The notes under the pieces are model-generated. The model had not been told where the DNA came from and ran no database searches. It saw only the letters and a program-made list of their open reading frames with translations. A stretch of 53,375 bases of DNA from Cladochytrium replicatum (Eukaryota; Chytridiomycota; Chytridiomycetes; Cladochytriales; Cladochytriaceae). The position numbers and the translations under genes were made by a program. Shown here piece by piece: positions 17,091-44,880 of the stretch. Positions within the stretch are counted from its first letter, which is position 1; each line of letters starts with the position of its first letter. The DNA lies in NCBI GenBank assembly GCA_025526935.1, contig JAHLKD010000150.1:7501-60875 (forward strand), read 5' to 3'.

Positions 17091-17263
17091 GCATGAACAA
17101 GCACGCCTGCGCAGCCGCATGCCGCGCCGCCCGCCACACACCCTCCAAAATTTTCATCTTCTGGCCATGCTCGCTTCCGTGCTCCCTCTGTGTCCCACCC
17201 TCGCGCCCCTCAGGAAATTATTCCTGACTCTCAGCCCAGCAACTTTGATGGAGAAAATTTTCT

Positions 17264-18474
17264 GTGGCAGATGAAGTGAATTCTCCTCGCAAATCACGTG
17301 ACCACCGATCACATGACCAAGCATCATCCACTTCAGAACCAGCTCGAATTAGAGGAAGATCCCCCGCAAGTGTCGTTGTTCACATGAATGATACAGTCGA
17401 AATGTCACTTACCATTGCTGATGCTGATCCCAAAGGGAAACGTCAAGCCTCAAAATCACCCCCGACTCGCCGACCTGCCTCTCGTGCCAGGGTCGAGAAG
17501 AATGCCTCTGCAGCTGATCATGCTACCTCTCCCTTGCCTACTCCTCGTGACCGATTCTTGGATGCTCTGCATATGCTGGCCCCTGCTCAAACTTCTGGAT
17601 CTCATCCATTAGTGATGTCTGCTTTCACTCGTGCAATGCAATTTCTCCCAGTATTGGAACCAGAGACTGAGGCTGCCTTCTTTGCTGCATTGACTATTGC
17701 TGTAGTTCCGTTGGTTGAAACTATCAGCTGCCCTCCTGCTGCTGTCTCTGCCGTGCCTTCCTATGCTCAAGTTGCGAGGCTAGCCGACTGCCACCTGCCC
17801 CTGCTACTCGCAATCCTGGGCCTTTCAGCACTGCAAAATTTGCCTCTCGTGCATCAAATGCTATTGTTTGTATTGAAGCTGCCGAAGCTGATGCTCAACC
17901 CACCCTTTATCGCTCAGTGGTTGCTGGAGTGGAACCCCTATCTCGCAGATCACTACGGCCACCCAGATTGGTGATTGATTACCCGGCTGAGTCACCAATT
18001 TTGATCAATCCTTCTCAGCCTGTTCGTGATGGTGCTGCTGGTTTTGCTAATGTGAGGCTTAAGGAAATTAGTCGTCAGCCACTTAATCAGCTCCGCACTC
18101 TGATTAATCGAATTTCTGGAAACCCTCAATTTTCGCGTGACATTCGCCATATTAGTTTTATTGGGCGTAACACTGCTGAGTTTATTTGCACTTCTGACTG
18201 TGCTGACAAGCTCCGCAAGGACATTTTTCCAGGTGATGAGGTGCCCGTTGATCGTTTTGACCCTGGGCAGCTTCGTTCTGGGTCTGTTCAATCACTTGAG
18301 CAACGTCAAGTTGCTGTAGCAAAGGCTGTTCACAAAAGATTTGCTCACCTCTTGCGAATTACTCATGATCCTGCAGTTTTTCATTATCTTCGTTCTAATC
18401 TTCCTGCTGCAGACTTTGAAGCTACTGTTTCTTTAGCCCGTTCTTCGCGTTCTGAACCTACATCTCGCAATTAA
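17264..18474 (+). pseudogene. LINE copy 1 ORF1 (gag-like), frameshifted
   Basis: ORF1 protein of the LINE, presumably the RNA-binding partner needed for retrotransposition. The N-terminal part is Ser/Arg-rich and disordered; the C-terminal part contains IRHISFIGRNTAEFICTSD followed by ADKLRKDIFPGDE, a domain also seen in the ORF1-only elements of this window. The frame shifts near 17,750-17,800, where one base present in copy 2 is missing, so the two halves read in different frames. The stop codon TAA overlaps the ATG of ORF2 (TAATG at 18,472-18,476). Confidence 0.8.
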
Positions 18475-21400
18475 TGTGGACTTTTCGTTCTGGAACCTTC
18501 AACTGTAGAGGTTTGCCTCTGGATTTTTCAGATTTACTTGCTTGGCTTGTTACTCATCAGCTTGATTTTTTAGTTTTAACAGAAACTCATCAGTTAACTT
18601 TAGACAGTGTTTCCTCAGAGTATTTGTTGTTTGATTCTCGTCCTCCACCAGACGCTCCTTTGGCATCTGGTGTTGCTCTTCTTATTAACCCACATCGTTG
18701 CAGTACTTATCAATTTAGGTTGATTGCATCAGTTCCTTCTGGGTTTGGTTTGTGGTTTAGGTTTCGTCAGGTCGTGATTGGTGGATTTTATTTTCCCCCA
18801 CGTTGGACTGCGGAGGACTGTTTGGGTGCATTATCTGATTTTCCTCAATTTGTTTCGAATTCGGATACACCAGTAGTTTTGATGGGTGACTTCAATTTTA
18901 GAACTCAGAGCACTGGTGATCATGTTACTAATGCCCGTGCCAGAGCACTTCTTCCTTTTTTTACAGCCCACTCACTTTCATTGGTTGTCCCAGCTTCTTC
19001 TTCAGCTCGCCGCCCAACTTTTCGTTCCCACTTAGGGAGTTCAATTATTGATTTGTTTTTTGCTTCTACTTATGTGACAGCTTCCTCTTATTTAGTGCAT
19101 GATCAACCCCAGTCTATGGCTCCACATCCTTCAGACCATTTTGCAGTGACCTGTTCATTTTCTTTAGCTGGCCCAGATCCTCGGGCCACTGTGCCTCCTC
19201 CTCTACCTTCTTGGAATCTCCGATTGTTAAAGGATGAAGTTATTCGTAAGTCGCACAGAGAAACTGCTAAGATTCTGCTTCCTCCAACATCAGAGGCGCT
19301 AACAGCAGCATTGGAACTACTTCAGGTCCCTGTGGGGACTTCTCTTTCTCATGCAGTGGCTCAGGGAGCAATCGATTCAGCATTTCAAATTATAGTTGGT
19401 TTTTATGAGGCAGCAGCAGTTCTGACATTGGGACCCCCAACACCTCGTCGTAGATCACCAGCGACCACTCCTTTGCCCCCTGAGATTGCTTTGTTGCATA
19501 GTAAGGCTCGTTCAGCATTCCGTGACTATTATTCCCTCTTGCACCACAATTCTTCTGACCCTCTTCTTCCTTTTCTAAGAACCCGCCAATGTGATAGTCA
19601 CAAAGCATTCAAATCAGCTCTGAGATCACACAGGCGTAAGACAAAAGCAAATTTTTTTGATGACCCTAGTTCTTTATCAGTGCCTTCTCTTCTGAAACAT
19701 GTGTCACATGCTCGGCGCTGTGCTAACTTTCGTACATCAGCTAATGGTTTAGATTTCGATCCTCAGTCTTTAGCCAAATGTGCTGATCATTTTGCTAGTG
19801 TCCACAATGCTCAGGCTGCTGACCCGGTTTCCCCTTCAATTGTTCTGTGTGATTTTCAGCTGCCATTGGATGTTGAAGCTTTGTTCTAGCTATTAGGGAA
19901 TGCCCTTTGGAGTCTGTCTCAGGTCATGATCGTCTGCCTGCAGAGCTTTATCGCCCTATTTCAGCTATTCTTGCTCCATTGTTCTTGCAGCTTTCTCAGT
20001 CTATTTTTCGCAGTAGTCTTACACCCACTTCATGGAATCTTGGGCTTTTGCACCCAGTTTGGAAGCAACGTGGTACGCTTGGTGACATTACTAATTATCG
20101 CCCCATTACTCTTTCGTGTGTTGCCCGAAAAATTTTTGAGCGAGCTTGTTGCCACATCTTTATTCTGCTATCACGTCTCAACGCCCACTTGATGCTGCCC
20201 AAGCGGGATTTCAGTCACACCGCTCGGGAATGGAATGTGTTTTTGGTCTTCAGGCATGTATCTCCCGTGCGTCTAATGCCAAGGTTCCTTGGGTTGCTGG
20301 TTTTTTAGATATTCAAGCAGCTTATGACACCACAAATCGTGCAATTCTTTGGGCTGAGCTTCTTTCTAGGGGAGTACCGTTGCCATTTGTTTTTGTTTTG
20401 AAGTCTCTGTTTGATTTTTGTTCTTCCAGAGTGGTTGTTGCAAATTGTTTTTCAGATGCTTTTGATTTGTTTAGAGGTTTGTTTCAAGGTTCTGTTCTCA
20501 GTCCACTTCTCTATATCACTTTTCTTGATCCTCTACCTGGGCTCCTCCGACCATTTGCCCCACCTATAACACTCTTTCATCCTGCCAAACCACGATATAA
20601 TTCTTTTTTATTTTCCAGATGATTTGGCCTTGTTTGCACTTACTTTGGATGCTATGCAGGCTCTTCTCTCTGTTTGTGACCAGTTTGCCCAAGCTCGTGG
20701 TTTTTCTTTTGCTCCTTTGAAGTCTGTGATTCTCACAAGAATTCCTATTCCTGCTAATTTGCCTTTGCTTCTTCATGGTCAAACTCTGCAAGCCTTCATT
20801 TCGTTATCTGGGTTGCTTTTTTGGAGATACTGGATTTGATGTTTCACTGACTATTTCCCATCAACTTGCCATAGCACGTGCAGCTCCTTTTGCTTTGCTT
20901 TCTTTTTCCAGGATGTTTGGTTCTCATTCTCTGGTTGTGGTTTGTCATTTATTTTTGTCTTTTATGCGACCTACACTTGAATTTGGTTTTATGTTATTCT
21001 TCCCTCTGTTGCTGTTTGCAAACCAGTTCGGACTTTTATCCACCAAAGTTTGTGTCGATTTCTTCGCCTTTCATTACCACGTCAATTGCTGGGGTTTTGC
21101 TGTTTTTTAAGTTTCCTGACCTTCAGTTTCGGCTTCAATATCTGCAGTTTCAGATGTTTCAACGTTGGTTGGATGATGATCCCCCTGATATGGTTCACTC
21201 TATGTTGTCATTCTTTCTTCCCAGGGAAAGCACTTTTGTTGTTCTCCTGTCGCTTTCAACAATCACTTCCTCTTCCAGGCTGCAAATGTTGTAGTTCCCA
21301 AAACTTCTAATGTTATCGCAAATCACTTTCACCAAGTAGCCTCATCTGCCTATGGTTCTATAGCTGCTAGCTTTGCTCCCCTTGCATCTGTCCACGCTCA

Positions 21401-21770
21401 TGCGCTAGCAATTGCTCCTCCATGCTTCCCTATTTCGTCAATCTTGAGGCTTCTGCAGTATCGCCTTGGACGTTTGTTTTATCACCCCCGCAAGCAGTGT
21501 TGTCGCTGCCGCACTGCAACACTCTCTAGATCTCATGTTTCAGAATGTTTGCGTCTTGACCTATTGTTGCCTCCTGTTCCTGTTCCTGTTTTACAACTTC
21601 CGATTGATGTTGCAATTGATAGCCTTTGTCCACTTCGCATTGTTAACCCAGCGAATCTTGCACCATGGTATCTTGTTTTTTGTTGCCTTCATAAGATGAG
21701 TTTACATTCTCTGTTTTGCTTTGTTGCTTTTCCTTATGCTGCGCGCCCTTCCCTATGTGCTGGTCCATGA
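18474..21770 (+). pseudogene. LINE copy 1 ORF2 (endonuclease + reverse transcriptase), frameshifted
   Basis: The first 471 codons are open: an APE-type endonuclease with FNCRG, LVLTETH, LMGDFNFRTQS and PSDHFAV, the expected metal-binding and catalytic motifs. Then a one-base deletion (near 19,881) stops the frame. Reverse-transcriptase pieces follow in other frames: YRPITLSCVARKIFE, AQAGFQSHRSGMEC, AGFLDIQAAYDT and GLFQGSVLSPLLY. At the catalytic FADD box this copy reads TTTTCCAGATGAT, which destroys the box and shifts the frame. The C-terminal Cys/His finger region is partly kept. It cannot make an active ORF2 protein. Confidence 0.85.
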
Positions 21771-21846
21771 CCATCTTGTAAGGCACTGTCGGTGTTGTTT
21801 TTTGTTATGCATTGTATGTGCAAAATAATAAATAATGTTGTTAAAT

Positions 21847-21853
21847 AAGGAAT
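21847..21853 (+). repeat. Candidate target-site duplication, right copy
   Basis: AAGGAAT directly after LINE copy 1, matching 17084-17090. Confidence 0.45.
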
Positions 21854-21900
21854 AAAGTACATATTGTAATTAAAACAATAGTTAGAAACATAGAAAGACT

Positions 21901-21992
21901 AGTGCTGGTTTGTTACCATTTTGTAAGGCATGTTGGATGTTGTTTATTGCTTGTTATTTATGTGCAAAATAAATACATAATGTTGTGCAAAA
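21901..21992 (+). mobile_element. Older LINE 3'-tail fragment
   Basis: TGCTGGTTTGTTACCATTTT followed by TGTAAGGCATGTTGGATG and ATGTGCAAAATAAATACATA aligns along its length with the 3' tail of the LINE but is clearly diverged. It is an older truncated insertion on the same strand, immediately beside copy 1. Confidence 0.65.
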
Positions 21993-35140: not shown

Positions 35141-35197
35141 AATGTCGGGAATAGTCCGTGTTATGGTCTACTTACATCCGTTTCATTATACCTCAAA

Positions 35198-35279
35198 CGT
35201 CACCTGCAGGATTCGAACCTGCGCGGGCAGAACCCAACGCCTTAGCAGGGCGCCGCCTTAACCACTCGGCCAAAGTGAC
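35198..35279 (-). tRNA. tRNA-Ser (anticodon GCT)
   Basis: 82 nt on the minus strand with no intron. The acceptor stem GTCACTT pairs with AGGTGAC (one G-U); discriminator G at 35198. The D arm holds the A box (TGGCCGAGTGG), the anticodon stem CGCC/GGCG encloses loop CTGCTAA with anticodon GCT (reads AGC/AGU), there is a long variable arm (GGG/CCC stem) as expected for serine, and the T arm GCAGGTTCGAATCCTGC holds the B box. CCA is not encoded. Confidence 0.95.
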
Positions 35280-35309
35280 ACTGAAACACCACGACGCTAG
35301 CTTTGTTGT

Positions 35310-36588
35310 TTTCTCTCTTCTCTGCCATGATCATTTGCACCTCACCTCCGGTTATCCATCGCAACTGTGAGCCTTGTACCCCTGCTGCCCTTCTTTTCAC
35401 CTCTGCTCCTCTCTCCCTTAGCTCTCCATTGACCCTCTCACCTGCTTCTCTTCTGAGCAGTCTGCTGACTAGCAGGGGCTACTCCTCTGCTCATCCCTTA
35501 TCTCTCTCACTTGCCTCTGCTCTGCCTTCTGACTTTGCAAGTTCCCTGACCTTCCTAAAGTGCTCTGCACTTCTATTGCGCTCCCTTTCTGCTCTCTCCC
35601 CTGCTACCCTCAACCCTGATCTGCTTCCAACTCTCCCTGCTTCTCCTCCACATTTACACGTCGCTGCCACCTGTGCCCTTGGTGCCACCAACACTGCCAC
35701 CAGCACTGCCCCTGGTGCCACCCACACTGCCACCACCACTCTTGACAGTTCAGCCACCTGCTCAGCCCCATCTCCAGCCTCATCACCTGCCACCAATGAT
35801 TCCATGAATGAGCTTACTTGTTCGCACTTCCTCTTGGACGACCTGCCGACCTCGCATAGAAGCTTCAAATTTGTCAAAGAATGTGCCGAATCCTTCACTA
35901 CTCTCCGATTTTCTGGTTTTACTCGTCGCCCAATCAGGGACCTTCGTGTGTTGCTTCGCAAAGATCTTCCGTATACCGCTTACCATGGCATCCGCTACAT
36001 CTCATTTCTCGGCTCTGATTCTGTTGAATTTCTTTGTCGTTCTTATGCTGCTGATCTGATCCGCAAACACATACCTGGTCGAGAAATCACTGATTTGGAT
36101 GTGTCCCCTCCTTCGTATTCTGACAGTTCCGACTCTCTGCAACGCTATGACTCTCTGCTCCATCGAAGTGCCAAGGCGATTGCTACTACGTCTGAGCCAG
36201 CTGTTGCATTGTTCTACCGCAATCTTGTTGATCCGTCTCATCTTTCTACGCTGTTGCATCTCGCTCGATTATATGCCCCTTCGATGACCTCAGCTTCTGA
36301 CCTTCGTTTGACCCAGTGATTTGCTGTTATATTCTTCACAATGTTGAGTGTTCTTTCTTTTCTTTATCCCTCACCTGTATTTGACACCTGAGCAGAGCCT
36401 GACGGGTAGTCACAGGAATGAGTTTTTAAGATCTCTGATTTCTATTTCGCTTTGCCCTCCGACTTGCGCGCTTCCCTATGTGCTGGTCCACGACCATCTT
36501 GTAAGGCACTTTGGGTGTTGTTTATTGTTATGCATTGTATGTGCAAATAAATAAATAATATTGTTCAAAAAAAAAAAAAAGAAAAAAA

Positions 36589-36589
<1 letters not shown>
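35310..36589 (+). mobile_element. ORF1-only non-LTR element, copy A (HAL1-like)
   Basis: About 1.28 kb with a single ORF (35327-36319), a 3' region containing CACCTGTATTTGACACC and CTGACGGGTAGTCACAGG, the tail TGCTGGTCCACGACCATC through ATGTGCAAATAAATAAAT, and a poly(A) at about 36,567-36,589. The tail is the same as that of the two-ORF LINE, but no endonuclease or reverse transcriptase is encoded. It is therefore non-autonomous and probably mobilised by the LINE. Copy B (43,047-44,320) is nearly identical, so activity was recent. The 5' boundary is inferred from where copies A and B stop matching. Confidence 0.85.
35327..36319 (+). CDS. ORF1 (gag-like) protein of the ORF1-only element, copy A
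   Basis: Intact 330-aa frame. The first 160 residues are Ser/Thr/Ala/Pro/Leu-rich and low-complexity. From about residue 165 a folded part begins: SHRSFKFVKECAESFTTLRF, then IRYISFLGSDSVEFLCRSY and AADLIRKHIPGREITDLDV. This aligns with the C-terminal domain of the LINE ORF1 (IRHISFIGRNTAEFICTSD, ADKLRKDIFPGDE), which is probably an RNA/nucleic-acid-binding or multimerising domain. The start at 35327 matches the start of copy B. Confidence 0.8.
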   Translation: MIICTSPPVIHRNCEPCTPAALLFTSAPLSLSSPLTLSPASLLSSLLTSRGYSSAHPLSLSLASALPSDFASSLTFLKCSALLLRSLSALSPATLNPDLLPTLPASPPHLHVAATCALGATNTATSTAPGATHTATTTLDSSATCSAPSPASSPATNDSMNELTCSHFLLDDLPTSHRSFKFVKECAESFTTLRFSGFTRRPIRDLRVLLRKDLPYTAYHGIRYISFLGSDSVEFLCRSYAADLIRKHIPGREITDLDVSPPSYSDSSDSLQRYDSLLHRSAKAIATTSEPAVALFYRNLVDPSHLSTLLHLARLYAPSMTSASDLRLTQ

Positions 36590-36649
<60 letters not shown>

Positions 36650-36704
36650 TCTCTCACTCTCTCTCTCACTCTCTCTCTCTCACTCTCTCTCTCCTCTCTC
36701 TCTC
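36590..36704 (+). repeat. CT dinucleotide microsatellite
   Basis: About 115 bp of almost pure CT with a few CA interruptions, directly between the poly(A) of ORF1-only copy A and the ORF1 start of LINE copy 2. It may be part of the LINE 5' leader or a microsatellite grown at the junction; copy 1 lacks it. Confidence 0.95.
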
Positions 36705-36712
36705 ACAAATCA

Positions 36713-38135
36713 ATGCCGCCTCCCAGCGCTCCGCCTGCGCAGCCGCCTGACGCGCCGCATGCCGCGCCGCCCGCCGCACCGCCCGCCGCACCCCTCTCAA
36801 AAATTTTCATCGCTTCTGGCCGTGCTCGCTCCCGTGCTCCCTCTGTGTCCCACCCTCGCGCCCCTCAGGAAAACATTCCTGACTCTCAGCCCAGCAACTT
36901 TGATGGAGAAAATTTTCTGTGGGCAGATGAAGTGAATTCTCCTCGCGAATCACGTGACTCACGATCACGTGACCAAGCGTCATCCACTTCAGAACCGCCT
37001 CGAATTAGAGGAAGATCCCCCGCAAGTGTCGTTGATGTTCACATGAATGATACAGTCGAAATGTCACTTACCCTTGCTGATGCTGATCCCAAAGGGAAAC
37101 GTCGAGCATCAAAATCACCCCCGACTCGCCGACCTGCCTCTCGTGCCAGGGTCGAGAAGAATGCCTCTGCAGCTGATCATGCTACCTCTCCCTTGCCTAC
37201 TCCTCGTGACCGATTCTTGGATGCTCTGCATATGCTGGCCCCTGCTCAAACTTCTGGATCTCATCCATTAGTGATGTCTGCTTTCACTCGTGCAATGCAA
37301 TTTCTCCCAGTATTGGAACCAGAGACTGAGGCTGCCTTCTTTGCTGCATTGACTATTGCTGTAGTTCCGTTGGTTGAAACTATCAGCTGCCCTCCTGCTG
37401 CTGTCTCTGCCCGTGCCTTCCTATGCTCAAGTTGCGAGTGCTAGCCGACCGCCACCTGCCCCTGCTACTCGCAATCCTGGGCCTTTCAGCACTGCAAAAT
37501 TTGCCTCTCGTGCATCAAATGCTATTGTTCGTATTGAAGCTGCCGAAGCAGATGCTCAACCCGCCCTTTATCGCTCAGTGGTTGCTGGAGTGGACCCCCT
37601 ATCTCGCAGATCACTACGGCCACCCAGATTGGTGATTGATTACCCGGCTGAGTCACCAATTTTGATCAATCCTCCTCAGCCTGTTCGTGATCGTGCTGCT
37701 GGTTTTGCTACTGTGAGGTTTAAGGAAATTAGTCGTCAGCCACTTAATCAGCTCCGCACTCTGATTAATCGAATTTCTGGAAACCCTCAATTTTCCCGTG
37801 ACATTCGTCATATTAGTTTTATTGGGCGTAACACTGCTGAGTTTATTTGTACTTCTGACTGTGCTGACAAGCTCCGCAAGGACATTTTTCCAGGTGATGA
37901 GGTGCCCGTTGATCTTTTTGACCCTGGGCAGCTTCGTTCTGGGTCTGTTCAATCACTTGAGCAACGTCAAGTTGCTGTAGCAAAGGCTGTTCACAAAAGA
38001 TTTGCTCACCTCTTGCGAATTACTCATGATCCTGCAGTTTTTCATTATCTTCGTTCTAATCTTCCTGCTGCAGACTTTGAAGCTACTGTTTCTTTAGCCC
38101 GTTCTTCGCGTTCTGAACCTACATCTCGCAATTAA
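36713..38135 (+). pseudogene. LINE copy 2 ORF1, one-base frameshift
   Basis: Starts MPPPSAPPAQPPDAPHAAPP, with a Pro/Ala-rich head, an Arg/Ser-rich section (RIRGRSPASVV, RRASKSPPTRRPASRARVEK) and the C-terminal IRHISFIGRNTAEFICTSD domain. One extra C near 37,411 (CTGCCCGTGCC against CTGCCGTGCC in copy 1) breaks the frame; the downstream half is open from 37,374 to 38,135. The stop overlaps the ORF2 start in TAATG. Confidence 0.82.
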
Positions 38136-41100
38136 TGTGGACTTTTCGTTCTGGAACCTTCAACTGTAGAGGTTTGCCTCTGGATTTTTCAGATTTACTT
38201 GCTTGGCTTGTTACTCATCAGCTTGATTTTTTAGTTTTAACAGAAACTCATCAGTTAACTTTAGACAGTGTTTCTTCTGAGTATTTGTTGTTTGATTCTC
38301 GTCCTCCACCAGACGCTCCTTTGGCATCTGGTGTTGCTCTTCTTATTAACCCACATCGTTGCAGTACTTATCAATTTAGGTTGATTGCATCAGTTCCTTC
38401 TGGGTTTGGTTTGTGGTTTAGGTTTCGTCAGGTCGTGATTGGTGGATTTTATTTTCCCCCACGTTGGACTGCGGAAGACTGTTTGGGTGCATTATCTGAT
38501 TTTCCTCAATTTGTTTCGAATTCGGATACACCAGTAGTTTTGATGGGTGACTTCAATTTTAGAACTCAGAGCACTGGTGATCATGTTACTAATGCCCGTG
38601 CCAGAGCACTTCTTCCTTTTTTTACAGCCCACTCACTTTCATTGGTTGTCCCAGCTTCTTCTTCAGCTCGTCGCCCAACTTTTCGTTCCCACTTAGGGAG
38701 TTCAATTATTGATTTGTTTTTTGCTTCTACTTATGTGACAGCTTCCTCTTATTTAGTGCATGATCAACCCCAGTCTATGGCTCCCCATCCTTCAGACCAT
38801 TTTGCAGTGACCTGTTCATTTTCTTTAGCTGGCCCAGATCCTCAGGCCACTGTGCCTCCTCCTCTACCTTCTTGGAATCTCCCATTGTTAAAGGATGAAG
38901 TTATTCGTAAGTCGCACAGAGAAACTGCTAAGATTCTGCTTCCTCCAACATCAGAGGCGCTAACAGCAGCATTGGAACCACTTCAGGTCCCTGTGGGGAC
39001 TTCTCTTTCTCGTGCAGTGGCCCAGGGAGCAATTGATTCCGCATTTCAAATTATAGTTGATTTTGTTGAGGCAACAGCAGTTCTGACATTGGGACCACCA
39101 ACACCTCGTCGTAGAGCACCAGCGACCACTCCTTTGCCCCCTGAGATTGCTTTGTTGCGTAGTAAGGCTCGTTCAGCATTCCGTGACTATTATTCCCTCT
39201 TTCACCACAATTCTTCTGACCCTCTTCTTCCTTTTCTAAGAACTCGCCAACGTGATAGTCACAAAGCATTCAAATCAGCTCTGAGATCACACAGGCGTAA
39301 GACAAAAGCAAATTTTTTTGATGACCCTAGTTCTTCATCAGTGCCTTCTCTTCTGAAACATGTGTCTCATGCTCGGCGCTGCGCTAACTTTCGTACTTCA
39401 GCTAATGGTTTAGATTTTGATCCTCAGTCTTTAGCCAAATATTCTGATCATTTTGCTAGTGTCTACAATGCTCAAGCTGCTGACCCAGTTTCACCTTCAA
39501 TTGTTCTGTGTGATTTTCAGCTGCCATTGGATGTTGAAGCTTTTGTTCTAGCTATTAGGGACTGCCCTTTGGAGTCTGCCCCGGGTCATGATCGTCTGCC
39601 TGCAGAACTTTATCGCCCTATTTCAGCTATTCTTGCTCCATTGTTCTTGCAACTTTCTCAGTCCATTTTTCGCAGTAGTCTTACACCCACTTCATGGAAT
39701 CTTGGGCTTTTGCACCCAGTTTGGAAGCAACGTGGTACGCTTGGTGATATTACTAATTATCGCCCCATTACTCTTTCGTGTGTTGCCCGAAAAATTTTTG
39801 AAGCGAGCTTTGTTGCCACATCTTTATTCTGCTATCACGTCTCAACGCCCACTTGATGCTGCCCAAGCGGGATTTCAGTCACACCGCTCGGGAATGGAAT
39901 GTGTTTTTGGTCTTCAGGCATGTATCTCCCGTGCGTCTAATGCCAAGGTTCCTTGGGTTGCTGGTTTTTTAGATATTCAAGCAGCTTATGACACCACAAA
40001 TCGTGCAATTCTTTGGGCTGAGCTTCTTTCTAGGGGAGTACCGTTGCCATTTGTTTTTGTTTTGAAGTCTCTGTTTGATTTTTGTTCTTCCAGAGTGGTT
40101 GTTGCAAATTGTTTTTCAGATGCTTTTGATTTGTTTAGAGGTTTGTTTCAAGGTTCTGTTCTCAGTCCACTTCTCTATATCACTTTTCTTGATCCTCTAC
40201 CTGGGCTCCTCCGACCATTTGCCCCACCTATAACACTCTTTCATCCTGCCAAACCACGATATAATTCTTTTTTATTTGCAGATGATTTGGCCTTGTTTGC
40301 AATTACTTTGGATGCTATGCAGGTTCTTCTCTCTGTTTGTGACCAGTTTGCCCAAGCTCGTGGTTTTTCTTTTGCTCCTTTGAAGTCTGTGATTCTCACA
40401 AAAATTCCTATTCCTGCTCATTCGCCTTTGCTTCTTCATGGTCAACCTCTGCCTGTCAAGCCTTCATTTCGTTATCTGGGTTGCTTTTTTGGAGATACTG
40501 GATTTGATGTTTCACTGACTATTTCCCATCGACTTGCCAAAGCGCGCGCAGCTTCTTTTGCTTTGCTTTCTTTTTCAAGGATGTTTGGTTCTCATTCTCT
40601 GGTTGTGGTTCGTCATTTGTTTTTGTCTTTTATTCGACCTACGCTTGAATTTGGTTTATATTTTATTCTTCCCTCTGTTGCTGTTTGCAAACCAGTTCGG
40701 ACTTTTATTCACCAATGTTTGTGTCGATTTCTTCGCCTTTCATTTTCCACTTCAATTGCTGGGGTTTTACTGTTTTTTAAGTTTCCTGACCTTCAGTTTC
40801 GGCTTCATATCTGCAGTTTCAGATGTTTCAACGTTGGCTGGATGATGATGCCCCTGATATGGTTCACTCTATGTTGTCATTCTTTCTTCACCAGGGAAAG
40901 CACTTTCGTTGTTCTCCTGTCCCTTTCAACAATCACTTCCTCTTCCCGGCTGCAAATGTTGTAGTTCCCAAACCTTCTGATGTTATCGCAAATCACTTTC
41001 ACCAAGTAGCCTCATCTGCCTATGGTTCTATAGCTGCTAGCTTTGCTCCCCTTGCATCTGCACACCCTCATGCGCTAGCAATTGCTCCTCCATGCTTCCC

Positions 41101-41446
41101 TATTTCGTCAATCTTGAGGCTTCTGCAGTATCGCCTTGGACGTTTGTTTTATCACCCCCGCAAGCAGTGTTGTCACTGCCGCACTGCAACTCTCTCTAGA
41201 TCTCATGTTTCAGAATGTTTGCGTCTTGACCTATTGTTGCCTCCTGTTCCTGTTCCTGTTTTACAACTTCCGCTTGACGTTGCAATTGATAGCCTTCGTC
41301 CACTTCGCATTGTCAACCCAGCGAATCTTGCACCGTGGTATCTAGTTTTTCGTTGTCTCCATAAGATTTGGCTTCACTGTATGGGTCTGCCATTAGAAGT
41401 TTCTCCTCCAGACTCCCTCTTTGGCCCTGCATTTGTGGATCTTTAA
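38135..41446 (+). pseudogene. LINE copy 2 ORF2 (APE endonuclease + reverse transcriptase + Cys/His finger), frameshifted
   Basis: Open for 573 codons from 38,135: endonuclease motifs FNCRG, LTETH, MGDFNF and SDHF, then reverse-transcriptase start HDRLPAELYRPIS and NYRPITLSCVARKIFE. One extra base near 39,802 ends the frame; the next frame (39,588-40,964) carries AQAGFQSHRSGMEC, AGFLDIQAAYDT, FQGSVLSPLLY and the catalytic FADDLALF. Another shift near 40,807 leads to the frame ending at 41,446 with a CX2C...HX3C finger (CCHCRTATLSRSHVSEC), common at LINE C-termini. Confidence 0.88.
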
Positions 41447-41690
41447 CGTTTTCTTTTCTCATTATTTATTACTCACCTGTTTTTTGGCACCTTAGCAGTA
41501 TCTGACGGGTAGCCACAGGTTTGAGTTTACATTCTGTTTTGCTTTGTTGCTTTTCCTTATGCTGCGCGCGCTTCCCTATGTGCTGGTCCATGACCATCTT
41601 GTAAGGCACTTTGGGTGTTGTTTTTTGTTATGCACTGTATGTGCAAAATAAATAATAATATTGTTAAAAATAAAAAAAAAAAAAAAAAAA

Positions 41691-41992
41691 CCTCATAGTG
41701 GCTCAGTCGGTACGAATGCGACTTTTCGAAGCTAAAACACCGCGGTTCGAATCCTATAGGGGACAGGATTCGAATTTCCTACGAAATATATCTCTCGCAA
41801 TATCGTGTCACGTGCAAGTACCACGCCACACCTCCTTCGATTCGCCATTGCCTTCGCTCCTCTTTCCTACGGCTCGCACGGCTCCCCAAGTACTGAAGAT
41901 TCCAAATCTTGGTTGAAGTACACGTGGGTGACATGTACTGATTAAGCATTGTCAATACATGTTATAACATTCAAAAAAAAAAAAAAAAAAAA
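41691..41992 (+). mobile_element. tRNA-derived SINE
   Basis: About 300 bp. The head has a perfect RNA polymerase III A box (TGGCTCAGTCGG, 41699-41710) and B box (GGTTCGAATCC, 41744-41754) spaced as in a tRNA, with a degenerate acceptor stem (CTCATAG / CTATAGG). An unrelated body of about 200 bp follows, then a poly(A) of about 20 (41,973-41,992). It lies exactly between the poly(A) of LINE copy 2 and truncated LINE copy 3. It does not share the LINE tail, apart from poly(A). Confidence 0.85.
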
Positions 41993-43046
41993 CCTTTTAT
42001 TTGTTTTTGTCTTTTATTCGACCTACGCTTGAATTTGGTTTATATTTTATTCTTCCCTCTGTTGCTGTTTGCAAACCAGTTCGGACTTTTATTCACCAAT
42101 GTTTGTGTCGATTTCTTCGCCTTTCATTTTCTACTTCAATTGCTGGGGTTTTACTGTTTTTTAAGTTTCCTGACCTTCAGTTTCGGCTTCAATATCTGCA
42201 GTTTCAGATGTTTCAACGTTGGCTGGATGATGATCCCCCTGATATGGTTCACTCTATGTTGTCATTCTTTCTTTACCAGGGAAAGCACTTTCGTTGTTCT
42301 CCTGCCCCTTTCAACAATCACTTCCTCTTCCCGGCTGCAAATGTTGTAGTTCCCAAACCTTCTGATGTTATCGCAAATCACTTTCACCAAGTAGCCTCAT
42401 CTGCCTATGGTTCTATAGCTGCTAGCTTTGCTCCCCTTGCATCTGCACACCCTCATGCGCTAGCAATTGCTCCTCCATGCTTCCCTATTTCGTCAATCTT
42501 GAGGCTTCTGCAGTATCGCCCCGCAAGCAGTGTTGTCACTGCCGCACTGCAACTCTCTCTAGATCTCATGTTTCAGAATGTCTGCGTCTTGACCTATTGT
42601 TGCCTCCTGTTCCTGTTCCTGTTTTACAACTTCCGCTTGACGTTGCAATTGATAGCCTTCGTCTACTTCGCATTGTCAACCCAGTGAATCTTGCACCGTG
42701 GTATCTAGTTTTTCGTTGTCTCCATAAGATTTGGCTTCACTGTATGGGTCTGCCATTAGAAGTTTCTCCTCCAGACTCCCTCTTTGGCCCTGCATTTGTG
42801 GATCTTTAACGGTTTCTTTTTTATTATTTATTACTCACCTGTTTTTTTGGCACCTTAGCAGTATCTGACGGGTAGCCACAGGTTTGAGTTTACATTCTCT
42901 GTTTTGCTTTGTTGCTTTTCCTTATGCTGCGCGCGCTTCCCTATGTGCTGGTCCATGACCATCTTGTAAGGCACTTTGGGTGTTGTTTTTTGTTATGCAT
43001 TGTATGTGCAAAATAAATAATAATATTGTTAAAAGAAAAAAAAAAA
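41993..43046 (+). mobile_element. LINE copy 3, 5'-truncated
   Basis: Matches copy 2 from about position 40,616 to the poly(A), almost base for base. It lacks the endonuclease and the reverse-transcriptase core and has a deletion of about 24 bp before the Cys/His finger (CAGTATCGCC joined to CCGCAAGCAG). The 3' UTR hairpin and tail are kept, ending in poly(A). Classic dead-on-arrival insertion. Confidence 0.92.
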
Positions 43047-44320
43047 TTTATCTTATCTGCCATCATGATTTACACCTCGCCTCCGGTTATCCATCGCAAA
43101 TGTGAGCCTTGTACCCCTGCTGCCCTTCTTTTCACCTCTGCTCCTCTCTCCCTTAGCTCTCCATTGACCCTCTCACCTGCTTCTCTTCTGAGCAGTCTGC
43201 TGACTAGCAGGGGCTACTCCTCTGCTCATCCCTTATCTCTCTCACTTGCCTCTGCTCTGCCTTCTGACTTTGCAAGTTTCCTGACCTTCCTAAAGTGCTC
43301 TGCACTTCTATTGCGCTCCCTTTCTGCTCTCTCCCCTGCTACCCTCAACCCTGATCTGCTTCCAACTCTCCCCGCTTCTCCTCCGCATTTACACGCCGCT
43401 GCCACCTGTGCCCTTGGTGCCACCAACACTGCCACCAGCACTGCCCCTGGTGCCACCCACACTGCCACCACCACTCTTGACAGTTCAGCCACCTGCTCAG
43501 CCCCATCTCCAGCCTCATCACCTGCCGCCAATGATTCCATGAATGAGCTTACTTGTTCGCACTTCCTCTTGGACGACCTGCCGACCTCGCATAGAAGCTT
43601 CAAATTTGTCAAAGAATGTGCCGAATCCTTCACTACTCTCCGATTTTCTGGTTTTACTCGTCGCCCAATCAGGGACCTTCGTGTGTTGCTTCGCAAAGAT
43701 CTTCGGTATACCGCTTACAATGTCATCCGCTACATCTCATTTCTCGGCTCTGATTCTGTTGAATTTCTTTGTCGTTCTTATGCTGCTGATCTGATCCGCA
43801 ACCACATACCTGGTCGAGAAATCACTGATTTGGATGTGTCCCCTCCTTCGTATTCTGACAGTTCCGACTCTCTGCAACGCTATGACTCTCTGCTCCATCG
43901 AAGTGCCAAGGCGATTGCTACTACGTCTGAGCCAGCTGTTGCATTGTTCTACCGCAATCTTGTTGATCCGTCTCATCTTTCTACGCTGTTGCATCTCGCT
44001 CGATTATATGCCCCTTCGATGACCTCAGCTTCTGACCTTCGTTTGACCCAGTGATTTGCTCTTTGCTGTTATATTCTTCACAATGTTGAGTGTTCTTTCT
44101 TTTCTTTATCCCTCACCTGTATTTGACACCTGAGCAGAGCCTGACGGGTAGTCACAGGAATGAGTTTTTAAGATCTCTGATTTCTATTTCGCTTTGCCCT
44201 CTGACTTGCGTGCTTCCCTATGTGCTGGTCCACGACCATCTTGTAAGGCACTTTGGGTGTTGTTTATTGTTATGCATTGTATGTGCAAATAAATAAATAA
44301 TATTGTTCAAAAAAAAAAAA
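43047..44320 (+). mobile_element. ORF1-only non-LTR element, copy B (HAL1-like)
   Basis: Nearly identical to copy A (35,310-36,589) from just before the ATG to the poly(A) at 44,309-44,320. It sits directly on the poly(A) of LINE copy 3. The same 3' hairpin and tail are shared with the LINE. Confidence 0.87.
43065..44054 (+). CDS. ORF1 (gag-like) protein of the ORF1-only element, copy B
   Basis: Intact 329-aa frame, one residue shorter than copy A at the N-terminus (MIYTSPPVIHRKCEPC against MIICTSPPVIHRNCEPC) with only a few other substitutions. It has the same low-complexity head and the same C-terminal domain (IRYISFLGSDSVEFLCRSY). Preservation of an open frame in both copies contrasts with the broken ORFs of every LINE copy here. 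Confidence 0.8.
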   Translation: MIYTSPPVIHRKCEPCTPAALLFTSAPLSLSSPLTLSPASLLSSLLTSRGYSSAHPLSLSLASALPSDFASFLTFLKCSALLLRSLSALSPATLNPDLLPTLPASPPHLHAAATCALGATNTATSTAPGATHTATTTLDSSATCSAPSPASSPAANDSMNELTCSHFLLDDLPTSHRSFKFVKECAESFTTLRFSGFTRRPIRDLRVLLRKDLRYTAYNVIRYISFLGSDSVEFLCRSYAADLIRNHIPGREITDLDVSPPSYSDSSDSLQRYDSLLHRSAKAIATTSEPAVALFYRNLVDPSHLSTLLHLARLYAPSMTSASDLRLTQ

Positions 44321-44880
44321 TCGTTTGCCCCTGTCCGCAATTTGAAACTTCGTCACCCTTTGTTGCTACCCCCACACCAACATCTCCCAACAGTATGTCT
44401 TCGTTTGTTCCTGCTATATCGGCTTGGCCGCCTGTTTCCAAACCCCTGACCTTATTGTAGGAACTGTCATGATGCCCCTGAAGTGTCGCGTGTCCATGTC
44501 TCTGTGTGTCTACATTTGCGTGCTAGTTTGTCTGCTAGTTTTGATTTAGGCCCTGACGATCCCCGCCTACCTCTGGACATTGCAATTGATATGCTTTCAC
44601 CACAGCGTTATTATCCTTTGCCTGCTTTTCCCAGTGGCTTCTTGTTCTTCGTGCACTTAACCGCATTTGGTCAAACTGTATTGGTTATGAGTTAGTTTTG
44701 TCTCCAACTCCTGATTGTATCTTGTCTGCTTTTGTTGATTTGGATATGCCTTAGTGTTTTGAAACATTTTACTTTTCCTACGGCTCGGCTCCCCATGTGC
44801 TGCCAATTTACGTGTATTTTTACACTTGTATTTGGATTTTGCAAAAGACTTTTATTGTAATTGTTTAATGTTCATGTTAG
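44321..44880 (+). mobile_element. 3' fragment of a second, divergent LINE family
   Basis: Reading through two frames gives a CX2C...HX3C finger (CRNCHDAPEVSRVHVSVC), then RLPLDIAIDMLSPQRY and IWSNCIGYELVLSPTPD followed by AFVDLDMP and a stop near 44,754. These align with the ORF2 C-terminus of copies 1-3 (QLPLDVAIDSLRPLRI; IWLHCMGLPLEVSPPDS; AFVDL), but the nucleotide sequence is very different. The 3' region also differs from the main family tail. Confidence 0.7.

Follow-up and report, generated by a model that had tools for sequence, protein, structure and literature searches.

Non-LTR elements that target tRNA genes have been described, in the literature searched, from dictyostelids. One of them, TRE5-A.2 of Dictyostelium discoideum, bears ORF1, lacks ORF2 and is tRNA-targeted, and the accessible portion of one report states that it is mobilised in trans (PMC5391098). 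The element is found upstream of tRNA genes, the 5' ends of element and tRNA facing each other, and occurs in tandems, as far as the accessible text of three reports goes (PMC5391098, PMC5911963, PMC5006619). HAL1 of mammals is an ORF1-only relative of the L1-type LINEs with several independent origins, described as an L1 derivative; tRNA-gene targeting is not mentioned in the accessible part of that account (PMC5753468). Drosophila HeT-A is, in the part of its description available, a non-LTR element without a reverse transcriptase of its own, which is thought to borrow one and occupies a fixed target niche, the telomeres (PMC5537684). Apart from TRE5-A.2, no ORF1-only element with tRNA targeting was found in the literature searched, the coverage of which was partial, and the accessible part of PMC6875170 holds nothing on such elements.

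The genome of the chytrid Cladochytrium replicatum was found to carry a family of this design, O-I. Like TRE5-A.2 in the available descriptions, O-I is non-autonomous, has kept ORF1, lacks ORF2, lies antiparallel upstream of tRNA genes and forms tandem stacks; the likeness is one of design, drawn from published descriptions. An initial annotation of the locus had named HAL1 as the nearest design. TRE5-A.2 is nearer and HAL1 comes next, and this placement is new beyond that annotation, as are the tRNA-gene targeting and a sister lineage bearing the tail of a different LINE. With HeT-A the family has in common the missing reverse transcriptase and the fixed niche, the target being telomeres in one case and tRNA genes in the other.

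Organisation of the locus

The window, which is the whole stretch of DNA analysed (53,375 nucleotides of contig JAHLKD010000150.1), includes a stack of forward-strand elements starting 35 bp upstream of the 5' end of a reverse-strand tRNA-Ser gene (gct, 35,197-35,280, ARAGORN). The first is copy A of O-I (35,316-36,578 by alignment to copy B, A-tail to about 36,589), with an open ORF of 330 aa (35,327-36,319, by ORF reading) and a 3' tail (36,320-36,566) whose last ~206 bp align with the LINE-1 tail at 83%. It is followed by a LINE-1 copy with a (CT)n leader, in which ORF1 and ORF2 are each broken over several frames (36,590-41,667), by the short SINE3, which lacks an ORF, has an A-tail and, judged by eye, carries a tRNA-like head (41,692-41,975), and by a 5'-truncated LINE-1 copy (41,999-43,032). 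Copy B of O-I with its A-tail (43,047-44,320, from genome search and alignment) has an open ORF of 329 aa (43,065-44,054), the C-terminal half of which is homologous to LINE-1 ORF1, and a 3' tail (44,055-44,308) in which folding predicts an AU-rich hairpin ahead of the A-tail. A 5'-truncated LINE-2 fragment (44,321-44,843) is the oldest visible layer of the stack.

That copies A and B each carry one intact ORF and neither endonuclease nor reverse transcriptase, as the initial annotation had it, was borne out: an ORF1-type protein is present, EN/RT and ORF2 are absent by Pfam, BLASTP and ORF reading, and the copy B ORF has no significant Pfam domain (best E 0.38). The further claim that every LINE copy is broken holds inside the window but not elsewhere. 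At six LINE-1 loci (L043, L045, L046, L048, L052 and L054) a 473-aa ORF1 and an ORF2 of at least 1108 aa occur together, and a stop-free ORF2 frame of this minimum length is present in 16 of 83 LINE-1 matches. The LINE ORF2 frames match Exo_endo_phos (3.7e-15) and RVT_1 (4.3e-19) in Pfam.

The O-I family

O-I is a discrete ORF1-only family with an element length of about 1.26 kb, and copies A and B, which are 98% identical across 35,316-36,578, are both members. A genome search with copy B, with scoring of 40 out of 413 candidates and all copy counts therefore lower bounds, gave at least 55 matches; at least 43 of these extend over 800 bp or more at 93-100% identity. The starts of 34 of these 43 fall within bases 1-13 of copy B, and the ends of 38 fall within its last 5 bases. 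The recurrence of copies with shared ends is not due to chance, and the observation made on copies A and B is thereby confirmed. Median differences among 22 near-full-length copies amount to 7 per 1267 bases, and two copies at separate loci are identical, which indicates recent activity. A full-length ORF without stops is present in 22 of at least 128 protein matches (121 of 359 candidates scored).

For the analysis of flanks, a set of 30 distinct copies with at least 1050 aligned bases was used; L036 (827 bp) was left out, and it too has a tRNA gene, 31 bp upstream. Most copies do not run on into an ORF2, the ORF being followed by its own tail in 29 of the 30, while the alignment of the thirtieth, L035, ends at base 1109. 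Target-site duplications appeared, by eye, short or absent.

The ORF1 protein

Resemblance to the LINE ORF1 had been claimed for the C-terminal domain, and two-sequence BLASTP against LINE-1 ORF1 agreed with this, aligning residues 183-314 only (31%, E 6e-14). For the N-terminal half no match was found in LINE-1 (L043) or LINE-2 (L071). As the C-terminal half alone is homologous, the O-I ORF1 does not derive from that of its partner LINE, and the family works like HAL1 but is not classed as HAL1; it differs in the same respect from TRE5-A.2, which the accessible descriptions present as a TRE5-A.1 derivative without ORF2. The comparison also refutes the view of O-I as internally deleted LINE-1 copies, to which a common tail and target might lead: besides the N-terminal half absent from LINE-1, the 31% of the C-terminal half contrasts with 97-100% among the LINE-1 ORF1 regions found, and this view retains practically no probability.

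An RRM-like fold, an RRM domain being a mark of L1-type ORF1 proteins, is tentatively predicted for the C-terminal half. A profile search of the PDB with the alignment of this half gave no significant match, and the predicted structure of the full-length protein has a pLDDT of 42.

The 3' tails

In the SINE/LINE partnership the 3' tail of a LINE recurs in a non-autonomous partner; O-I, unlike the SINE of such a pair, encodes a protein. Its tail is 82.8% identical to that of LINE-1 over 209 bp, with 95 of 109 positions identical in the last stretch, and 40-47 bp of its own sequence separate the stop codon from the shared part. Thus, the initial annotation was right that the last ~200 bp stay close to the LINE of the window while ORF1 is far more diverged, and that ORF1 and tail of this non-autonomous family have different histories. 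The tails of LINE-1 and LINE-2 have only 39 bp in common (77%), and their ORF1s are 42% identical, closer to each other than that of O-I is to either. Folding of the terminal hairpin gave z values of -3.3 (LINE-1), -2.4 (O-I), -2.8 (O-II) and -1.8 (SINE3); the value for LINE-2, 0.5, comes from an ill-chosen stretch running beyond the A-tail, and a separate 110-base fold shows a hairpin there.

Insertion upstream of tRNA genes

O-I, LINE-1, LINE-2 and SINE3 all occur as stacked insertions upstream of tRNA genes and antiparallel to them, the arrangement described for TRE5-A.2. Among 118 element-tRNA pairs from 58 sequences of the four element types, with double counting of a small number of overlapping loci (L027/L028, for example), 108 have the element 5' of the tRNA gene and antiparallel and 10 violate this rule. 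A tRNA gene is present in the upstream flank (up to 1500 bp) of 22 of the 30 O-I copies, antiparallel in all 22, and at no more than 36 bp in 14; in the downstream flanks examined (~1.2 kb for most copies) no tRNA gene occurs in any of the 30. For most of the eight copies without a tRNA gene in the upstream flank examined, that flank contains a further element of these four types, and L037 has neither. The O-I distances to the tRNA gene number 17, of which 16 are distinct (L027 and L028 are one copy) and one, L057, belongs to a tail fragment only. The copies of O-I closest to the gene are 6-35 bp away from it, compared with ~44-54 bp in the available descriptions of TRE5.

O-I is probably an ORF1-only non-LTR family that the LINE-1 ORF2 protein mobilises in trans via the shared tail, the family's own ORF1 protein packaging the RNA. 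Common tail and common target both point to the use of the LINE-1 enzyme, which would recognise the O-I tail, while the O-I ORF1 protein would most likely act in cis by coating the mRNA that encodes it. Delivery of this complex would follow ~6-35 bp upstream of tRNA genes in antiparallel orientation, as for LINE-1, LINE-2 and SINE3, and would make the elements stack. The ORF1 protein may have a share in finding the tRNA gene, targeting by way of this protein being reported for TRE5-A; it need not be encoded in cis for targeting, since SINE3 reaches the same site with no ORF. Within one genome, two autonomous LINEs and a SINE, together with ORF1-only parasites numbering at least two, are all directed at the same kind of site. 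This combination allows the roles of ORF1 protein, ORF2 protein and tail of a LINE in fixing the target to be told apart, a question asked so far mainly with Dictyostelium TRE5-A.

Sister lineage and selection on the ORF

O-II is an older, decayed sister lineage that has both ORF halves in common with O-I and carries the tail of LINE-2 (80% over 130 bp). Between the two lineages pN/pS is 0.54 and 0.70 for the two ORF halves, both below the neutral simulation, and differences by codon position are 57/29/76 over 116 codons, the second position being the most conserved. The ORF looks constrained across O-I and O-II. Within O-I, to which the dN/dS check proposed in the initial annotation applies, the outcome is less clear: the shared variants, 16 N and 10 S, give an omega of ~0.65 and singletons ~1.2 (Fisher p 0.23), shared variants of the C-terminal part alone ~1.2, and the pooled pN/pS is 0.89. 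In LINE-1, the omega from shared variants was ~0.48 in ORF1 and ~0.21 in the initial part of ORF2.

These within-family counts, not different from neutrality, together with the use of the same target by the ORF-less SINE3, would suit an ORF that is a by-product, with O-I moving SINE-like by its tail alone and the ORF1 product idle now. This is unlikely in view of the conserved second codon position, the pN/pS between the lineages and the number of full-length, stop-free ORFs. Intactness of ORF1 had also been read as a hint that the protein is needed in cis, but this inference is weak, because intact ORFs are expected regardless in copies so young, LINE-1 also has intact copies outside the window, and SINE3 reaches the same target with no ORF.

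O-I and O-II may share an ancestor that was itself ORF1-only and had a packaging protein under constraint, each lineage acquiring the tail of a different LINE, or keeping pace with it, and surviving by partner switching among tRNA-gene-targeted elements. This history, that of an old lineage and not of fresh deletion products, has in our view a little less than an even chance; if it is true, a retroelement can persist with a packaging protein alone by swapping tails. The bit scores of the O-I C-terminal half, higher with LINE-1 (58.5) than with O-II fragments (42.7 and 38.1), count against the preferred reading of O-I as a trans-mobilised family with O-II as its sister lineage. A rather less probable, still tentative origin is internal deletion of a third autonomous LINE with the same ORF1, extinct or missed, whose kinship with LINE-1 would account for the tail. 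HAL1 and TRE5-A.2 are, in the accessible descriptions, derivatives of autonomous elements, and a rare parent could have escaped the 121 of 359 ORF and 150 of 469 reverse transcriptase candidates covered. However, no LINE carrying this ORF1 was found among the matches listed: no ORF2 was seen joined to the O-I ORF in at least 128 matches or to the O-II N-terminal half in 79, part of them read as sequence. The long tail match of O-I to LINE-1, set beside the short one between LINE-1 and LINE-2, and the closer kinship of the two LINE ORF1s likewise argue against such a parent.

The 150 RVT_1 candidates listed in the search for a third LINE family were mostly LINE-1 and LINE-2, and the shorter matches are taken for LTR elements. 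The match of LINE-2 ORF2 to L1 ORF2p (1.2e-22) is stronger than to any of the R2 proteins compared (3e-18 at best), which places it coarsely.

ORF1-only elements form a young family

A single pile of retroelements occupies 35.2-44.8 kb of the window and lies upstream of the minus-strand tRNA-Ser gene at 35197-35280. All elements share one orientation and follow in the order O-I copy A, a broken LINE-1, SINE3, a 5'-truncated LINE-1, O-I copy B and a 5'-truncated LINE-2 piece. O-I denotes an ORF1-only non-LTR family, LINE-1 and LINE-2 are two-ORF LINEs, and SINE3 (41692-41975) is a short ORF-less element with a tRNA-like head as judged by eye. As O-I copies A (35316-36578) and B (43047-44320) both lie inside this stack, they are two layers of one pile. 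At 17114-21986 the window has another broken LINE-1 copy and, after it, two decayed tail fragments, 13 kb from the sole tRNA gene detected in the window by ARAGORN.

The genome (50.5 Mb, 198 contigs, window included) was searched with copy B, giving at least 55 matches, at least 43 of them of 800 bp or more with 93-100% identity. Both ends recur among the matches listed: 34 of 43 long matches begin no more than 13 bases from the copy B 5' end, and 38 of 43 stop no more than 5 from its 3' end. The ORF1-only organization proposed in the initial annotation was borne out, as 29 of 30 distinct copies inspected with flanks pass from the ORF to their own tail and do not continue into an ORF2. A search with the ORF protein gave at least 128 matches, of which 22 among those listed span residues 3-330 without a stop. 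The copies are young, since two at separate loci are identical and the median pairwise difference among 22 near-full-length copies is 7/1267 bases. Short 5' leaders ahead of the ATG vary by copy group (L011, L021, L024, L025, L027, L029, L031); this could mean that transcription begins in the neighbouring DNA, close to the tRNA gene.

The O-I protein and its constraint

No Pfam family was matched by the O-I ORF protein. The C-terminal domain, modelled on LINE-1 ORF1 in alignment with O-I, has a beta-alpha-beta-beta-alpha core and, after it, three helices (pLDDT 77), and its structural neighbours were mainly RRM domains with modest Z (best 6.2). This is compatible with, but does not prove, an L1-type RNA-binding ORF1 protein.

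Within O-I, pooled pN/pS was 0.89; shared variants (16 nonsynonymous, 10 synonymous, omega about 0.65) and singletons (about 1.2) were not distinguishable (Fisher p 0.23), and shared variants of the C-terminal part alone gave about 1.2. Between O-I and O-II, its older decayed sister lineage, the N-terminal half gave pN/pS 0.54 (bootstrap 0.44-0.68) and the C-terminal half 0.70 (0.58-0.87). Neutral simulation of this comparison gave values of about 1.0, the lower 2.5% bounds being 0.80 and 0.81; the C-terminal interval overlaps this edge. N-terminal differences by codon position were 57/29/76 among 116. From these pN/pS values and codon-position differences, the ORF protein appears to have been constrained at some time after the O-I/O-II split.

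Mosaic structure of O-I and O-II

Over 209 bp the O-I tail has 82.8% identity with that of LINE-1, whereas its ORF has 31% identity with LINE-1 ORF1 (residues 183-314), in agreement with the earlier claim of a tail that closely matches the LINE and an ORF1 that is far more diverged. Identity with LINE-2 ORF1 is 27% over a similar stretch, and sequence comparison disclosed no counterpart of the O-I N-terminal half in ORF1 of either LINE. The tails of LINE-1 and LINE-2 have just 39 bp in common (77%).

O-II was detected by protein search through the O-I N-terminal half (45%, residues 14-116). Broken copies lie at L069, L072, L073 and L074, with the N-terminal half of the ORF in L069 and the C-terminal half in L072 and L073; a tail of LINE-2 type comes next in L069 (77% over 123 bp) and in L073+L075 (80% over 130 bp). 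A C-terminal tree of five sequences splits LINE-1 and LINE-2 from O-I and O-II with 99% ultrafast bootstrap. Counted against this grouping are that the tree is unrooted and that in BLASTP O-I scores higher to LINE-1, with 58.5 bits, than to the O-II fragments, which are shorter and give 42.7 and 38.1 bits.

Insertion upstream of tRNA genes

ARAGORN scans of upstream flanks of up to 1500 bp located a tRNA gene at 22 of 30 O-I copies, antiparallel in 22/22 and at most 36 bp away in 14 of the 30; none of the 30 had one downstream (flank mostly about 1.2 kb). A tRNA gene is also present at 18 of 29 LINE-1 loci (L040-L068). Over 57 loci and the window, the element lies 5' of the tRNA gene and antiparallel in 108 of 118 element-tRNA pairs (LINE-1 37, O-I 30, LINE-2 26, SINE3 15), the ten exceptions comprising eight antiparallel pieces of LINE-1 or O-I and two pieces of LINE-2 on the tRNA 3' side. 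Nearest distances were 6-35 bp for O-I (16 distinct), 6-23 bp for SINE3 (n=7) and 6, 6 and 31 bp for LINE-2. SINE3 has at least 40 genome copies (96-100% identity), and its tail has 33 bp in common with LINE-2 (91%). Because it reaches the same destination with no ORF, the target can be found without ORF1 provided in cis.

Most likely, O-I mRNA would be bound by its own ORF1 protein, its shared 3' tail would be recognized by the LINE-1 ORF2 protein, and the latter would use a nick upstream of a tRNA gene as the site at which to copy the RNA. The precedent is TRE5-A.2, reported as lacking ORF2, retaining ORF1 and being mobilized in trans; interaction of the TRE5-A ORF1 protein with TFIIIB subunits is also reported (PMC5391098 and PMC5911963). 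An ORF1-only, tRNA-targeted design mobilized in trans, as O-I would be, already has a known example in TRE5-A.2, and HAL1 provides known ORF1-only elements. O-I differs from both in that its ORF1 is not that of its partner, and in that a sister with the same protein, O-II, bears the tail of the other LINE. A bold reading, given slightly less than an even chance, is that O-I and O-II are a partner-switching lineage.

LINE-1 and LINE-2

LINE-1 appears to be alive in sequence terms, since 16 of 83 ORF2 matches lie in stop-free frames of at least 1108 aa, and six such loci additionally have the 473-aa ORF1. For LINE-2, stop-free frames of 1163 aa occur in 19 of the 150 matches listed, and the copy at L071 has both ORFs open; the LINE-2 ORF2 is closer to human L1 ORF2p than to R2 proteins. 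A (CT)n leader opens both LINEs, which are 95% identical across the first 59 bp of ORF1 (L043/window 36713-36771 vs L071 153-211), whereas the C-terminal parts of ORF1 have just 42% identity and the remainder is strongly diverged, as if 5' ends had also been exchanged. At G000:C73:48378, C88:188455 and C55:38676 the RT matches are shorter (about 480 bp), have long open frames and are probably LTR retrotransposons.
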